From Clostridia bacterium (GTDB lineage Bacteria > Bacillota > Clostridia > Oscillospirales > QAKW01), in NCBI GenBank assembly GCA_017937065.1, contig JAGBEI010000031.1, forward strand, positions 62,001-126,000: 64,000 bases of DNA. Direction: 5' to 3'. This document shows positions 51,353 to 61,011 of the stretch, piece after piece; the first letter of the stretch is position 1; each line of letters begins with the position of its first letter. The notes under the pieces are model-generated. The model searched no databases. It had not been told where the DNA came from and was given only the letters and a program-made list of their open reading frames with translations. A program made the translations under genes and the position numbers.

Positions 51353-52267
51353 TTGAAAACAAAGCACTCACTTATATTTACAATCGCCGCAGCGGGCATA
51401 TGCGCCGTGCTGCGGATAATGCAATACTGCTTTATTATTGACCAAAACGGATATTTCAGACCGGAGAGCACCGCGCACACAATGCTGATATATATATTGT
51501 ACGCAGTTATGGCGCTGGCGGCGGTCACGGCACTCATTATTATGTTTGTCGGAAGCCGCGAACGTGTGGGAGCCGAAGTTTTTAAAAATAACTCTTCGGG
51601 ATTTCTAATGCTCGGCGCTGCGGTGCTTATGACAGTGGATTTCGGCATATGCGCCGGAAAAATGTTTCAGACTTCCGTGCCGGACATTGCAGCATTGTTC
51701 GAGCTGCTTACCGCAATATATTTTGCAGTACTCGGATATAAAATACTCAGCGGCAGCCGCATCGGCGGCGCCGCCGTTATCGGGCTTTTTGCACCGATAT
51801 TCGTAATTGTATTTGCTGTGACTGAATTTTTCGGTTCGTTTGAAAAAGTTCATGTAAGCGAGACAAAGTTCAATATGCTTGCAATCTGCGCAATGGCTCT
51901 TTTTGTCGTCACAGTTACTCTGCTGTTTGCCGGGAACGCGGTTTCAAAAAAAAGGCTCACCGCAGTTTGCATGCTGTACACGGTAATCGCATCTCCCGCA
52001 GCCGTAGCCGGTCTTGCCGCACTTATCGCGGGTAAAATAACGGCAGAATCACCAGTGCGTTTTACCGTTAAGGCTCTGACCGAAATTGTATTTATGGTGC
52101 TTGCAATAACGGCAATGGCAAGAACTGACCGCTGCATAATCAGTACAGATAAAGAAGAAACGCAAAACGAAGCAGAAAGCAATTCAGAAACAGCCGGTGA
52201 AAATCTAACAGATATTATTTCGGATATAACAAATGACAATAACAAAGGAGAAGACTGTAATGGTTAA
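51353..52267 (+). CDS. Eight-helix membrane protein, unknown function
   Basis: 304 residues from TTG, 9 nt after CGGAGG. Eight hydrophobic helices fill residues 5-260, and a charged Glu/Asn-rich cytoplasmic tail follows. No family recognised. The stop overlaps the GDPD start, so the proteins are made together; a lipid- or wall-related role is only a guess from that link. Confidence 0.75.
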   Translation: MKTKHSLIFTIAAAGICAVLRIMQYCFIIDQNGYFRPESTAHTMLIYILYAVMALAAVTALIIMFVGSRERVGAEVFKNNSSGFLMLGAAVLMTVDFGICAGKMFQTSVPDIAALFELLTAIYFAVLGYKILSGSRIGGAAVIGLFAPIFVIVFAVTEFFGSFEKVHVSETKFNMLAICAMALFVVTVTLLFAGNAVSKKRLTAVCMLYTVIASPAAVAGLAALIAGKITAESPVRFTVKALTEIVFMVLAITAMARTDRCIISTDKEETQNEAESNSETAGENLTDIISDITNDNNKGEDCNG

Positions 52268-55607: not shown

Positions 55608-55643
55608 AACAGCAGCAACCGTTCGGCGGTTGCTGCTGTTTTA
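55606..55643. terminator. Strong bidirectional terminator
   Basis: A perfect 16-bp stem (55606-55621 with 55627-55642) of CAG/CTG-rich sequence ends in A- and T-runs between the convergent queT-like gene and the ABC uptake operon. Confidence 0.93.
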
Positions 55644-56198
55644 TTTTAATTCGATTACTTTATCTGCTATACATATATCCCCGTCATCATGCGTGACAAA
55701 CATAACCTGGCGTCCGTCAGCCGCCAAAAGTTCAAGCATACAGCTGCGGTTTTCGGCATCCAGCGCGGAGAAAGGCTCGTCAAGCAGCAGCAGCTCCGCG
55801 TCATATGCAAGTGCGCGCGCAAAGGATACCCGCTGCTTCATACCCCCTGACAGCTGACCGGGATACTTGTCAAATTCACTTATACCGACGCTTTTCAGAA
55901 TTCTTTCGGCATAGCCGGAATTTCTATCATAATCATGCAAAACCGCCGTTATGTTCTCAAGCGCGGTAAGCCACGGGAAAAGCCGCGGCTCCTGAAACAT
56001 CACCGAAATTTTTTTATCACATACAAACCTGCCTTTGCACGGCTTTACAATCCCCGCCGCGACCGACAAAAGCGTAGTTTTGCCGCAGCCCGACGGTCCC
56101 TTCACAGCGGTTATGCGGCTTTCGGACAGATCTGCGCTGAACCCGTCCAGCACTGTTTTTTCTCCGTATTTTACGGTCACATTGTCAAAACACAGCAT
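55641..56198 (-). CDS. ABC importer ATPase (nitrate/sulfonate type)
   Basis: 185 residues, short for the family (SsuB is about 250) because the C-terminus ends right after the core. Walker A KGPSGCGKTT, signature LSGGMKQRVSFARA, Walker B LLLLDEPFSALDA, H-loop VTHDD. It energises the importer with the permease at 56204-56959 and the binding lipoprotein. The gene stops inside the terminator stem. Confidence 0.9.
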   Translation of the reverse strand: MLCFDNVTVKYGEKTVLDGFSADLSESRITAVKGPSGCGKTTLLSVAAGIVKPCKGRFVCDKKISVMFQEPRLFPWLTALENITAVLHDYDRNSGYAERILKSVGISEFDKYPGQLSGGMKQRVSFARALAYDAELLLLDEPFSALDAENRSCMLELLAADGRQVMFVTHDDGDICIADKVIELK

Positions 56199-56203
56199 GT
56201 TTT

Positions 56204-56959
56204 TTACCCGCCCTGCCTTTCATAACGTCTGCCCGCCCGTGAAAGGGCGGCACAGATTACGTTTTCTATAATGACGCTTAAAACTATGACAACGGCGCTC
56301 CATGCAAACAGATCGGTAGTTTCAAGATACATTTTGCTGCCGTAAATCATTTTGCCGATAGAAACAGCCGGAACAGCCAAAACCTCCGCCGCGACCCCCG
56401 CCTTCCATGCAAGCCCCAGCGACGAACGGCAGGCGGACAAAAAGTACGGAAATACGGAAGGTATGTACAAAATACGTATCTTTTTCCGAAAACCGAATCC
56501 AAAGCTGCGGCAAACCTGCCAAAGACCGCGGTCAATCGCAAGCATTCCGCCGCTTACATTAGAGTGTACAACAGGCAGCGCGATAAGAACGGTTATAAAT
56601 ACGGGCAGAACATTGCGGTCAAGCCATAAAAGCGCAAGCATTATAAATGATGCAACCGGCGTTGCCTTTATAATATTTATCACCGGCGATATAACGGCAC
56701 GCGCAAGTCTGAAACGAAAGCACACAACCGCAGTCAGCACACCCAAAATCAACGCGGCAAAAATACCGAGCAATATACGCAAAAGGGATATTCCCGCCGT
56801 CTGCCAAAACTGTGACGTTGCCCCCAGCTCCAAAAGCCGTTTTACAACGCTTACGGGACCGGGCAGCAAAAGCGGACTGGCAACAGCTGCTGAAGCCGCC
56901 TGCCAGACCGCCAGCCAAAACAGTGCAGATATTAAATTTACAGTCAGTTTTTTTCTCAA
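56204..56959 (-). CDS. ABC importer permease (SsuC/TauC-like)
   Basis: 251 residues, six TM helices. The coupling-loop EAA-like motif appears in AIDRGLWQVCRSFGFGFRKKIRILYIPSVFPYF. The start is TTG 56959, directly after the stop of the binding protein, with a weak AGGA three bases upstream. Inserts into the membrane as a homodimer. Substrate as for the cluster: sulfonate-, nitrate-, thiamine-precursor- or ethanolamine-like; not resolved. Confidence 0.9.
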   Translation of the reverse strand: MRKKLTVNLISALFWLAVWQAASAAVASPLLLPGPVSVVKRLLELGATSQFWQTAGISLLRILLGIFAALILGVLTAVVCFRFRLARAVISPVINIIKATPVASFIMLALLWLDRNVLPVFITVLIALPVVHSNVSGGMLAIDRGLWQVCRSFGFGFRKKIRILYIPSVFPYFLSACRSSLGLAWKAGVAAEVLAVPAVSIGKMIYGSKMYLETTDLFAWSAVVIVLSVIIENVICAALSRAGRRYERQGG

Positions 56960-57946
56960 CTATCCTAAATAGTAAATATCATCCGCAGGCAGGGCGCCGC
57001 CGACGGACTTGGGATCGGCATCAAACATTACATTAAAAAAAGTATTCAGCGATTCTTTCATGCTGTCCCCCGCAATATAGCAGAGATTACAGTTTGGTAT
57101 CGCATTTTCCGCAACCGCGGCTTTCTCAAAAATTCCGTGAGCGGCAATCATTTCGGATGCCTCCTTCGGATTTTCATTTACAAATGTGACGGACGCGCTG
57201 TATTCTTCCAGGAATTTATTTAGCTCATTCGGATTTTCCTCTGCAAATTTCTTCGATACCACAATACAGCCCTGCATGAGCGAATCCTTCTGTGCTACCT
57301 TGTTCCATTCCGCGGTCAGGTCAAGAACCGTGTTTAATTTGTCATTTGCCGATTTTGCTATTGTCACCATCGGCTCGGGAAGAACCGCAAGCTCAACCTT
57401 ACCGCTTGCCACCGCTGTACGCAGGTCTGCGGGTGCATTATAGGTAAAATCAAGAGTTATATCCTCCCCCACCTTTAGACCGTTTTGCTCACAGAGATAT
57501 GCCGTGATATACTCGGGATTGGAGCCCTGACCGGGAACATAAAGCGTTTTTCCCTTAAGGTCGGCAAAGCTCTTTACGGTATCGCCGTTTTCAACAACGT
57601 ACAAAACGCCGAGCGTATTCACTGCCGCAACCTTAATTTGACCCTGAGTTTTATTATAAACCACAGCCGCCGCGTTTGTCGGCAGAGCGGCAATATCAAC
57701 ACTTCCGCTGATGAGCGCGGCATTGACGGCAGATGCGTCACTCTCTACGGAAAAATTATAGTTAAGCGCAGCGGTGCCGTTTTTACTGTCGTCAATGAGC
57801 TTTGCAGCCCCGAACCCCGTCGTGCCGTTAAGCACCATAACCGAAATTTCCTTCTCGGCATCATATGCCGGAGCTTTATCGGCACACGACACAAGCGAAA
57901 ATACCATAACCAATACGGTTATAACCAAAAACAGTCTCTTTTTCAT
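56960..57946 (-). CDS. ABC importer substrate-binding lipoprotein
   Basis: 328 residues. Lipoprotein signal MKKRLFLVITVLVMVFSLVSC with Cys21. NMT1/SsuA-type periplasmic-binding fold: SDASAVNAALISGSVDIAALPTNAAAV, LYVPGQGSNPEYITAYLC, KVELAVLPEPMV. AGGAGG lies 9 nt before ATG. Delivers the ligand to the SsuC-like permease. Confidence 0.9.
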   Translation of the reverse strand: MKKRLFLVITVLVMVFSLVSCADKAPAYDAEKEISVMVLNGTTGFGAAKLIDDSKNGTAALNYNFSVESDASAVNAALISGSVDIAALPTNAAAVVYNKTQGQIKVAAVNTLGVLYVVENGDTVKSFADLKGKTLYVPGQGSNPEYITAYLCEQNGLKVGEDITLDFTYNAPADLRTAVASGKVELAVLPEPMVTIAKSANDKLNTVLDLTAEWNKVAQKDSLMQGCIVVSKKFAEENPNELNKFLEEYSASVTFVNENPKEASEMIAAHGIFEKAAVAENAIPNCNLCYIAGDSMKESLNTFFNVMFDADPKSVGGALPADDIYYLG

Positions 57947-57958
57947 TTCAGTTTCCTC

Positions 57959-58603
57959 CTAATATCTTTTAATCATATTTTGCCGGTCGAGTATTGTTAT
58001 ATCATTGCCATCCCGTAAAATACATCCGTCCGACACCATCTTATCCAGCGCACGGTAAAGCGACGCACGGCCGATACCGAGCATATCGGAGACTGATGTA
58101 AGATTGACCGGAAGATGCAGTCTGTCCTCGCCGAACGAATCAAGAAACACGGCAAGCTTGCGCTCAGCACTGCCGGCAGTCAGATAGGTTATTTTTTTAT
58201 TGAGATACCCTATCCTTCCGCTTAAAAACGAAATATACCCGTACATAAAAGAGTTGTCATTTTCAAGCATATACCGCACTGTCTCTTCGTCAAAAAACAA
58301 GACCTGCGACTCACCCTTGGAAAAGACGCGGCTTATCTGCTTTTCCTCAGCGAAAAGACCTGCGACACCGCACACCTCACCGCTGCCTATTCTGCGCAAA
58401 AGCAGACGGCGGCGGCTGTCACTTGAATAAGCATGGGCACTCCCGCTGAGCAAGACCGCAAGGCTTTTGTAAATCTCGATTTCCTGACCCGAGCCGTATC
58501 TTGCAGTACGCGCATTTTTAAGCGCGCAAAGCAGAACATCACTTTTTATATCCGCAAACAACCGAATATTTTTAATTTTTACAAGATATTTTTGAGCTTC
58601 CAT
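57959..58603 (-). CDS. Crp/Fnr-family regulator
   Basis: 214 residues from ATG 58603 (upstream in-frame codons fall in the promoter and are rejected); GGGG 9 nt before it. The N-terminal cNMP-like beta barrel (about 15-115) carries an RMISRV-like loop; HTH TSVSDMLGIGRASLYRALDKMVSDGCIL lies at 165-192. Weak Cys content, so an Fnr-type iron-sulfur cluster is unlikely. First gene of the four-gene ABC operon; divergent from a DMT permease. Confidence 0.9.
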   Translation of the reverse strand: MEAQKYLVKIKNIRLFADIKSDVLLCALKNARTARYGSGQEIEIYKSLAVLLSGSAHAYSSDSRRRLLLRRIGSGEVCGVAGLFAEEKQISRVFSKGESQVLFFDEETVRYMLENDNSFMYGYISFLSGRIGYLNKKITYLTAGSAERKLAVFLDSFGEDRLHLPVNLTSVSDMLGIGRASLYRALDKMVSDGCILRDGNDITILDRQNMIKRY

Positions 58604-58639
58604 TCTCAACCCCAAAATTGTATCATATGAGACATATAT

Positions 58640-58668
58640 ATAATAATACCAATAAAGTCGTTTGTCAA
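58640..58668 (-). promoter_or_regulatory. Promoter for crp-ABC importer operon
   Basis: Minus strand TTGACA (58663-58668), 17-bp spacer, TATTAT (58640-58645). Its -35 forms half of a 12-bp palindrome. Confidence 0.85.
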
Positions 58669-58670
58669 TA

Positions 58671-58699
58671 TTGACTTGATAAATTTTTGAGGATATAAT
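58671..58699 (+). promoter_or_regulatory. Promoter for DMT permease, apparently leaderless
   Basis: TTGACT (58671-58676), 17-bp spacer, TATAAT (58694-58699). The ATG begins at 58707, seven bases after the -10 element, so transcription should start at or next to the A of ATG. The GTCAATATTGAC palindrome (58664-58675) links both -35 elements. Confidence 0.85.
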
Positions 58700-58706
58700 A
58701 TTCTGC

Positions 58707-59582
58707 ATGAAAATAAACGGAAAAACAAAGGGAATAATCTGCATTATCGCGGCAGCGTTCGGATTCTCGCTGATGTCGGTGTTTGTGCGTCTGGCAGGCG
58801 ACCTGCCGTCTTTTCAAAAAGCATTTTTCAGAAACTTTATTGCGCTTATTTTTATGACCGGCACGCTTTTGAAAAAGAAAACAGGCTTTTTGCCCCGAAA
58901 AGAAAATGCTCTTTATCTTGTGGGACGCTCACTGTTCGGTACGATAGGAATTGTCTGCAATTTCTATGCAATAGACAGGCTGGTACTTGCAGACGCCAAC
59001 ATGTTAAATAAGCTTTCGCCGTTTTTTGCAATAATTTTTTCGGCGCTGCTGCTTAAGGAAAAGCCGGATATAGTACAGCTATGCGCAGTCGCCGCCGCAT
59101 TTGCGGGAACGGTTATGATAGTAAAGCCGGGATTTACCGGAATGTCTTTTTTTCCTGCGGCAGTCGGAACACTCGGCGGTGCAGGCGCCGGAATTGCATA
59201 TACATTTGTCAGAAAGCTCGGATGCAGAGGAGAGGACAGCACCAAAATTATATTCTGGTTTTCTGCGTTTTCCACTGCGGTATGTCTGGGATTTATGCTG
59301 ATACCCGGAAATTTTGAAAAAATGAGCGTGCGGCAGCTTTTGTTTATGTGCCTTGCGGGACTTTGTGCGTGCATAGGTCAGTTCGGAATAACAAATGCGT
59401 ACATCTTTGCGCCGGCAAAGGAGATATCGGTATACGACTACTCACAGGTAGTTTTTGCTGCGCTGCTGGGATTTATTCTTTTCGGGCAAATCCCCGATAT
59501 ACTCAGCATTCTCGGATACGCTCTTATCTGCGGCGCGGGCATTGCGATGTTTTTTTATAATAAAAGGAGGACGTACTCATGA
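58707..59582 (+). CDS. DMT/EamA-family permease
   Basis: 291 residues, ten TM helices in two EamA repeats; start MKINGKTKGIICIIAAAFGFSLMSVFVRLAG is typical. The consensus promoter predicts transcription starting at the ATG, so no ribosome site of its own can lie in the mRNA. Divergent from the Crp regulator; ends in a 4-nt overlap with a P-loop kinase gene. Substrate unknown. Confidence 0.88.
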   Translation: MKINGKTKGIICIIAAAFGFSLMSVFVRLAGDLPSFQKAFFRNFIALIFMTGTLLKKKTGFLPRKENALYLVGRSLFGTIGIVCNFYAIDRLVLADANMLNKLSPFFAIIFSALLLKEKPDIVQLCAVAAAFAGTVMIVKPGFTGMSFFPAAVGTLGGAGAGIAYTFVRKLGCRGEDSTKIIFWFSAFSTAVCLGFMLIPGNFEKMSVRQLLFMCLAGLCACIGQFGITNAYIFAPAKEISVYDYSQVVFAALLGFILFGQIPDILSILGYALICGAGIAMFFYNKRRTYS

Positions 59583-60091
59583 TAATCCTAATTTTCGGAT
59601 GTTCTCATACGGGCAAAACCTGCCTTGCGCAGCGTCTGCTCGAAAAATACAAATATCCTTATCTTTCAATAGACCATCTCAAAATGGGGCTTATCAGAAG
59701 CGGTCAGACAGAGCTTACGCCCGAAGACGACAATGAGCTAACGGAATATCTGTGGCCGATAGTTTCGGAAATTATAAAAACCGCCGTTGAAAACAATCAA
59801 AATCTGATTGTTGAAGGGTGCTATATCCCGTTTGACTTCAAAAAGGATTTCACGGACGAGTATGCAAAGCATATACGCCATGTGTGTCTTGTGATGAGCG
59901 GAAAATACATTGAAACACACTTTGACGATATAATAAGCCATGCAAGCGATACGGAACAGCGCTCTGACGAATCTTGGCTCACAACAGAATTTCTCATTGA
60001 GGAAAATGAGCACAGCCTTGCAATGTGCAAAAAATACGGCTGCGAATACATTTTAATAGATAGCGAATATAACGTAGATTTGATAATTTAA
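59579..60091 (+). CDS. P-loop kinase-like protein
   Basis: 170 residues. Walker A GCSHTGKTC at 7-15, followed by a DHLK motif near residue 33 and a lid-type region with many charges. A Walker-B-like LIVEGCYIPF lies near 80. It resembles adenylate-kinase-like or zeta-type small kinases that phosphorylate sugars, shikimate or nucleosides. ATG in a 4-nt overlap with the DMT permease, so the pair may import and phosphorylate a metabolite. Confidence 0.8.
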   Translation: MIILIFGCSHTGKTCLAQRLLEKYKYPYLSIDHLKMGLIRSGQTELTPEDDNELTEYLWPIVSEIIKTAVENNQNLIVEGCYIPFDFKKDFTDEYAKHIRHVCLVMSGKYIETHFDDIISHASDTEQRSDESWLTTEFLIEENEHSLAMCKKYGCEYILIDSEYNVDLII

Positions 60092-60217: not shown

Positions 60218-60246
60218 TTGACATATGCTGCCGCTTTTTCTATTAT
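60218..60246 (+). promoter_or_regulatory. Promoter upstream of metzincin fragment and lipoprotein gene
   Basis: TTGACA (60218-60223), 17-bp spacer, TATTAT (60241-60246), consensus -35. Confidence 0.8.
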
Positions 60247-60375: not shown

Positions 60376-61011
60376 ATGAAAAAATTAATTATTACTGTTA
60401 TCGCATTAATAGCTTTAGTGTCATTTTCAGCCTGTAAGCAAATGCCGGAATCAGAAAACAACATGCAGGGTTCGTCGTCCGAAAACTCCGTTTCATACCA
60501 TAATGACAATGATACACTAATAACGAATTCTGAAAACGAGCAGGAACCATCAACAATCTATATGGTAGACTCGATGTTTCAATCCTTTGATGCCGCGCAA
60601 CTGGAAGAGATTGCCGATCTTATCATAACCGCGGGCTTTGACGGTACCACAAGCACATTCACGGTAGACGAAAACGCGGGAATATACCGTTCTGATTACG
60701 CCTATACACAGCAGTTTGTAGCTCCGACGGTTACAATCAAAGGCAATGCACCGGAAACTGTAAATATCAGACGCACAGGCGGTATAAATAAGGAAGGCAT
60801 ACCGGTTATATCAAACGACCCCGAGCTTGTAAGCGGCAAAAGCTACCTGCTTTATCTGGAAGAAAACGAGCCTGCGTTCAGTGACGATGAACAAAGCTTC
60901 ACTATACTGGAATTTTTCGAAATAAAATCAGACGGTACGCTCGATACAAAAGACAGAGATGCTGACGACGCAGCCGCTGTCATCAGCCTGTATAATGAGC
61001 ATAAAAGCTGA
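60376..61011 (+). CDS. Lipoprotein of unknown function
   Basis: 211 residues. AAGGAGG before ATG. Lipoprotein signal MKKLIITVIALIALVSFSAC (Cys20), then a Ser/Asn/Glu-rich linker of about 45 residues and a beta-rich domain (DLIITAGFDGTTSTFTV, TVTIKGNAPETVNIRRTGG, GKSYLLYLEENEPAFSDDE) similar in outline to small cell-surface lipoproteins. Secreted and lipid-anchored. No family recognised. Preceded by a truncated metzincin gene. Confidence 0.75.
   Translation: MKKLIITVIALIALVSFSACKQMPESENNMQGSSSENSVSYHNDNDTLITNSENEQEPSTIYMVDSMFQSFDAAQLEEIADLIITAGFDGTTSTFTVDENAGIYRSDYAYTQQFVAPTVTIKGNAPETVNIRRTGGINKEGIPVISNDPELVSGKSYLLYLEENEPAFSDDEQSFTILEFFEIKSDGTLDTKDRDADDAAAVISLYNEHKS

Follow-up and report, generated by a model that had tools for sequence, protein, structure and literature searches.

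The nearest precedent for the locus reported here is the account of HcpR- and FNR-type regulators in PMC1274295. The accessible part of that paper gives the HcpR sites as TTGAC-N4-GTCAA (HcpR1) and GTAAC-N4-GTTAC (HcpR2) and the FNR box as TTGAT-N4-ATCAA. It reports a correlation of residues R180 and E181 with bases G3 and A6 of CRP/FNR sites, and gives position 181 (CRP numbering) as Pro in most HcpR2 proteins, as Ser in two species of Clostridium and as Gln in the HcpR of P. gingivalis. As to leaderless genes, the accessible part of PMC4342826 refers to predicted leaderless transcripts in about a quarter of Firmicutes species, where they make up 2.4-16.6% of the sequences, and states that no truly leaderless transcript was found in B. 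methanolicus. Our search of the open-access literature, which included six exact 16-mer boxes of the type described below, returned no paper with the boxes and none recognisably on this regulator; the conserved box and its one-residue code were not met in the literature so searched.

The window, that is, the whole stretch of 64,000 nucleotides analysed here, carries divergent genes for a Crp/Fnr-type regulator (crp) and a DMT/EamA transporter (DMT). The region between them (58603-58707) very probably controls a local uptake operon that regulates itself, with the Crp-type regulator acting on TGTATCATATGAGACA by autorepression; in kind there is nothing out of the ordinary about such a Crp-type operon. 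The crp product matched PF00027 with 33 bits (cutoff 27.5) and PF13545 with 32 bits (cutoff 27), namely a cNMP-binding-type domain and a Crp-type HTH, and by these domains and its fold matches it belongs to the Crp/Fnr superfamily. The gene order crp, substrate-binding protein (SBP), permease and ATPase was kept in 14 of 14 fetched relatives, the nearest of the same genus and the farthest of the same order. Three same-family relatives (L042-L044) have about 0.9 kb more between the SBP and permease genes, which leaves room for an extra gene. The features are collected in Table 1.

Table 1. Features of the crp-DMT intergenic region and its neighbourhood (positions in the window)
Feature	Position	Strand	Basis and remarks
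ABC transporter ATPase	55641-56198	-	PF00005; same order in 14/14 relatives
ABC transporter permease	56204-56959	-	PF00528; same order in 14/14 relatives
ABC transporter substrate-binding protein (SBP), NMT1/SsuA-like	56960-57946	-	domain and family matches; with crp in 14/14 first-set relatives
crp, Crp/Fnr-type regulator, 214 aa	57959-58603 (ATG at 58603)	-	PF00027 and PF13545 above cutoff
Predicted operator of the Crp-type regulator	58619-58634	-	TGTCTCATATGATACA on the crp strand, TGTATCATATGAGACA on the plus strand; conservation and covariation
crp operon promoter, -10 TATTAT	58645-58640	-	consensus scan; aligned block largely kept in G001 and G003
crp operon promoter, -35 TTGACA	58668-58663	-	consensus scan; kept in 3/3 aligned same-genus sequences, window included
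Palindrome GTCAATATTGAC	58664-58675	.	formed by the abutting -35 boxes; not conserved as an operator
DMT promoter, -35 TTGACT	58671-58676	+	consensus scan; lineage-specific; 3-nt gap and unlike bases in both aligned relatives
DMT promoter, -10 TATAAT	58694-58699	+	sequence and consensus scan; ends 7 nt before ATG 58707
DMT/EamA transporter, 291 aa	58707-59582	+	PF00892; ATG 58707 the only plausible start
P-loop (AAA-like) protein	59579-60091	+	ORF coordinates; weak AAA matches below cutoff

Consensus scanning confirmed the divergent promoters with 17-bp spacers that the preliminary description had read; each has 11 of the 12 bases of a sigma-70-type consensus. That description had also rightly given the two -35 hexamers as 2 bp apart (58669-58670, TA) and forming GTCAATATTGAC, and the DMT -10 box as ending 7 nt before the ATG (58699 to 58707). 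Between 57000 and 60500 the scan returned 16 promoter-like sites versus 7.5 (sd 2.4) in shuffles. The minus-strand promoter is further backed by conservation in G001 and G003, the two same-genus relatives with crp; crp had no match in the third, G002. Elsewhere, another 11/12 promoter, TTGACA-17-TATTAT, lies on the plus strand at 60218-60246; the ORF that follows 130 bases downstream, at 60376, starts like a lipoprotein and has an NCBIfam match below cutoff.

The predicted operator TGTATCATATGAGACA lies just in front of crp, about 40 bases from the palindrome GTCAATATTGAC. It is symmetric at 7 of 8 base pairs, and its 16 bp are identical in all three aligned genomes (window, G001 and G003). 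The strict form TGT-N6-TG-N2-ACA was found once in the 320 bases upstream of crp at each of the 15 loci of a first set, the window included; this set held 14 fetched of the 16 non-window places with E ≤1.2e-14, and the other two, G040 and G017, entered later as L169 and L168. The crp search gave matches in 277 of 394 genomes, and a further set was made of the 56 best-ranked new places, leaving out G100 (no upstream sequence on its contig) and everything below G223 and sharing some genera with the first set. At these 56 loci the loose form TGT-N10-ACA was present 50 times and the strict form 43 times, as against means of 3.5 (maximum 8) and 0.21 (maximum 2), respectively, in 200 shuffles. TGT and ACA (box positions 1-3 and 14-16) were required by the search pattern and are invariant by construction.

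The box goes largely with the transporter. An SBP gene was linked to crp at 52 of the 56 further loci, and 49 of those 52 had the loose box. The box was absent at six loci, of which L177, L215 and L217 were SBP-linked. All three judgeable loci at which no linked SBP gene was detected (L179, L187 and L207) were without it, L187 having only 201 upstream bases in view; at L216, where the box is present, the contig is too short to judge linkage. Thirteen more distant Crp genes gave three loose matches, with cores such as TTGYA, and one strict match; one of these controls, L032, has a linked SBP gene, yet no box. In 63 crp promoters scoring at least 9/12, the box starts -1 to 16 nt past the -10 hexamer, most commonly at 5 nt, as in the window. 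These distances cluster at 0 (9 promoters), 5 (19) and 11 nt (7), steps of about half a helical turn that recur across several families and may reflect relatedness and sampling. L168 and L169 have two boxes upstream of crp (at about -106 and -32), the distal one TGTTCC or TGTTAC...GGCACA, a possible double operator. Membership of the box in a larger regulon was rejected: with up to three mismatches, the window's genome gave 15 matches versus 19 control matches, the crp box being the sole exact one and one other place having two mismatches, and the degenerate pattern TGTNTCANNTGANACA brought in no more than two parS-like sites.

The protein side of the contact was examined on an AlphaFold model of the regulator (pLDDT 87.7), in which the recognition helix comprises residues 179-191 and starts R179-A180-S181-L182-Y183-R184. 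R179, Y183 and R184 were invariant across 15 aligned regulators. The profile alignment sets residue 180 against the Gln of P. gingivalis HcpR; since the accessible part of PMC1274295 puts this Gln at CRP position 181, residue 180 of the window protein corresponds to that position. In the numbering of the same source, as far as accessible, the G of the box TGT is G3 and the covarying base, our box position 5, is position 6. Because the G was fixed by the search pattern, it is no test of the code, and the covariation is the test. Residue 180 and base 5 agreed in 60 of 64 cases, counted on the first half-site only and with family labels assigned by hand: T was the base in 46 of the 49 cases with Ala, and C or A in 14 of the 15 with Thr or Ser (contingency counts Ala-T 46, Ala-other 3, non-Ala-T 1, non-Ala-other 14; Fisher 2e-10). 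Permuting residues within families gave a mean of 48.3 agreements and reached 60 in none of 20,000 trials. The four exceptions are L171, L204, L206 and L221. L203 was dropped, its helix (SRAGVYR) falling outside the search pattern; its box, TGTATC, would agree. For L168 and L169 the promoter-proximal box was substituted for the distal one, and base 5 is not T in either box. These results are strong, if indirect, evidence that the Crp-type protein would bind at 58619-58634, and they point to a palindromic site read by the helix residues at 180, 181 and 185, as is usual in the superfamily.

In the mechanism that we propose, a Crp-type dimer would sit on TGTATCATATGAGACA and cover the transcription start of its own operon, which would lie near 58633 when the last -10 base is counted as -7. 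Arg179 would read the G of TGT, and residue 180 (Ala) would set box position 5. The box spans roughly positions -1 to +15 of the crp promoter, which reads most naturally as autorepression: by its position, the bound dimer would keep RNA polymerase from initiating at crp, presumably in a manner tuned by a ligand. DMT would be driven by its own strong promoter, the -35 box of which adjoins the crp -35 box, and the DMT mRNA would probably start at the ATG or 1 nt upstream. With the -35 boxes so close, there is probably no room for two polymerases at once, and the promoters may compete. The joint block of both promoters by one regulator, as first suggested for this region, is not expected, because the DMT start lies about 80 bp downstream of the centre of the predicted box.

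DMT itself looks like a neighbour that crp acquired by a lineage-specific rearrangement, since no DMT homologue beside crp was matched by tblastn in 70 crp loci (median 1785 upstream bases in view; under 1000 at L034, L040, L043 and L187) and since G001 and G003 have another gene in its place. That gene, which we take from its translation to be flavoprotein- or rubredoxin-like, is found in the window's genome at C26:28016-28681 with 93% identity. The start of the P-loop gene behind DMT overlaps the stop codon of DMT, so that the two are probably co-transcribed.

From the sequence, the DMT mRNA could plausibly be leaderless or nearly so, which would not be extraordinary. The -10 spacing predicts a leader of 0-1 nt (start at 58706-58707). 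The frame holds no other ATG, GTG or TTG back to the upstream stop, nor any in the next 30 bases, and 57 of 58 rows of DMT homologues, its own row included, align from residues 1-7. We consider it unlikely, if well worth weighing, that DMT is instead translated from a longer mRNA by way of GAGGAT (58689-58694). The AGGA of this motif ends 13 nt before the ATG, and SD-like sites occur close to the starts of several DMT homologues; the 13-nt spacing is nevertheless long for an SD, the other upstream plus-strand sites in the scanned region (57994-58021, 57177-57206 and the overlapping 58676-58704) score only 9/12, and the 11/12 promoter would start transcription at the ATG or just before it.

The -10/ATG layout was not seen at the plausible starts of any of 31 DMT homologues. 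L088 has TAAAAT 7 nt before a GTG that lies 48 bases upstream of the aligned part, and in L103 and L113 a TATAAT-like box directly abuts a start. In the window's genome the pattern TTGA-N17..20-TATAAT-N5..8-ATG gave 16 matches versus 2 for the reversed control, only 5 of the 16 opening ORFs of at least 158 aa (the next is 72 aa), and no promoter peak 4-8 nt before starts was found among 414 ORFs in 464 kb. The idea that genes of this genome are commonly leaderless was rejected on the last two counts. L120, L121, L122 and L128 have TTGA...TATAAT ending 6-8 nt before ATG and are further leaderless candidates; from their translations we take these genes to be TrxB-like, QueH-like, radical-SAM-like and TadA-like.

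A more far-reaching reading of the same data, which we hold to be decidedly unlikely as a whole, is that the regulator belongs to an order-wide and apparently undescribed branch of local Crp-type autorepressors with a one-residue code at CRP position 181 (Ala reading T, and Thr or Ser reading C or A, at box position 5), and that in this lineage a rearranged DMT gene parasitises the crp promoter. The abutting -35 boxes would then make polymerase occupancy mutually exclusive, and autorepression of crp, in leaving the -35 region free, would indirectly raise the leaderless DMT mRNA.

Returning to the local autorepressor that we prefer, its operator might act in another way. Crp-family proteins are often activators, which would favour activation from the 58619-58634 box; the box is also partly transcribed, in the crp leader, and might work as an RNA element, the leader of one relative folding modestly (z -1.18). 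Both roles are very unlikely. Classical activator sites lie upstream, whereas the box is at or downstream of the -10 end in all 63 scored promoters. As to RNA, the leader in the window folds no better than shuffles (z 0.93), at gaps of 0-5 nt the transcript would begin within the box, and the changes in the box follow a protein residue. A reading of the box as an RNA hairpin was rejected.

The preliminary description had placed the Crp-type protein on GTCAATATTGAC, between the promoters, as a repressor of both, and this we regard as most improbable. The appeal of the idea is evident: the 12-bp palindrome is perfect, two strong promoters surround it, a Crp-family gene lies beside it, and the 1.91-Mb genome holds only three copies. 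The other two copies are inside long ORFs, which from their translations we take to be one thioredoxin-like and one repeat-like. However, the palindrome is accounted for by the abutting -35 boxes. Ten of its 12 bases are simply TTGAC and the reverse complement of TTGAC, set 2 bp apart, so that GTCAATATTGAC is not evidence independent of these boxes; its symmetry is lost at the sixth -35 base, with T on both flanks.

The comparative data also speak against GTCAATATTGAC. Of the 60 crp promoters that were scored, all with sufficient sequence in view, the window's own alone has the back-to-back form GTCAA-NN-TTGAC, GTCAANNTTGAC, and none of 56 test crp upstreams contains it. In the three-genome alignment the crp-side half of the palindrome is conserved, G003 having a single T-to-C change immediately outside this half. 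At the DMT-side half, both same-genus relatives show a 3-nt gap and dissimilar bases. The recognition-helix code matches the other box, at 58619-58634. The half-site order of GTCAATATTGAC is moreover opposite to that of the FNR and HcpR sites given in the accessible part of PMC1274295. GTCAATATTGAC was thus rejected as an operator on its rarity at crp promoters, its poor conservation and its absence from the test upstreams. As this case shows, two -35 boxes can incidentally give rise to a conspicuous palindrome between divergent promoters, with the likely operator lying inconspicuously close by.

Almost no weight can be given to the box being a degenerate parS (ParB) site, an idea raised by the outer pattern that it has in common with TGTTTCACGTGAAACA, which we take to be the parS consensus, and by the matches of TGTNTCANNTGANACA in the window's genome (besides the crp box, only a tandem pair of parS-like sites 5' of a parA-like gene), since a central CG occurs in 0 of 65 crp boxes and the box covaries with the Crp helix. 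The tandem TGTTTCACGTGAAACA sites themselves, at L225 (own genome, C9:51473-51488 and 51502-51517), have an outer pattern like the crp box; the name parA-like for the gene 3' of them is our presumption.

The autorepressor and its operator can be set against the known systems. Like the Firmicutes genes predicted to be leaderless, DMT has a -10 box 7 nt before its ATG and no properly spaced SD; in contrast to a general pattern, such a layout is a minority in this genome and was not seen in the 31 DMT homologues. From FNR, with its N-terminal cysteine cluster (Fe-S), the window protein differs in having one Cys in its first 35 residues.

E. coli CRP (TGTGA-N6-TCACA) has the same 16-bp TGT...ACA geometry and overall fold, and the window regulator has Arg at the places of CRP R180 and R185. 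It differs in that CRP Glu181 is replaced by Ala, Thr or Ser, the core bases are unlike, and the regulator appears to be local, whereas CRP is global. In the cNMP-binding-type domain, the profile reads GdvfGvaalF versus the FGEAAL...RSAT of cyclic-nucleotide kinases, and the phosphate-cassette Glu is not kept in it.

P. gingivalis HcpR (structure 9day, 25% identity) was the best Foldseek match of the regulator and also the best among Crp-type PDB chains by profile. The two have palindromes of similar span, GTAAC-N4-GTTAC in HcpR2 and GTNTC-N4-GANAC in the window-type box, and in both the residues at CRP positions 180 and 181 go with the site bases. TGTATCATATGAGACA fits neither the HcpR1 nor the HcpR2 site as given in the accessible part of PMC1274295; the box of L041, TGTAATAAATGTTACA, is near the HcpR2 motif. 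Unlike HcpR, the window family has Ala or Thr, rarely Ser, at CRP position 181, and the window regulator is linked to an ABC transporter, not to hcp, with a site that overlaps the start of its own operon. For this Crp-type regulator, which is widespread and serves an ABC uptake system of Clostridia, the present analysis offers a predicted operator and a code that links residue to base, and it extends the R180/E181 code of PMC1274295, the accessible part of which already includes Ser, Pro and Gln, to Ala and Thr at position 181.
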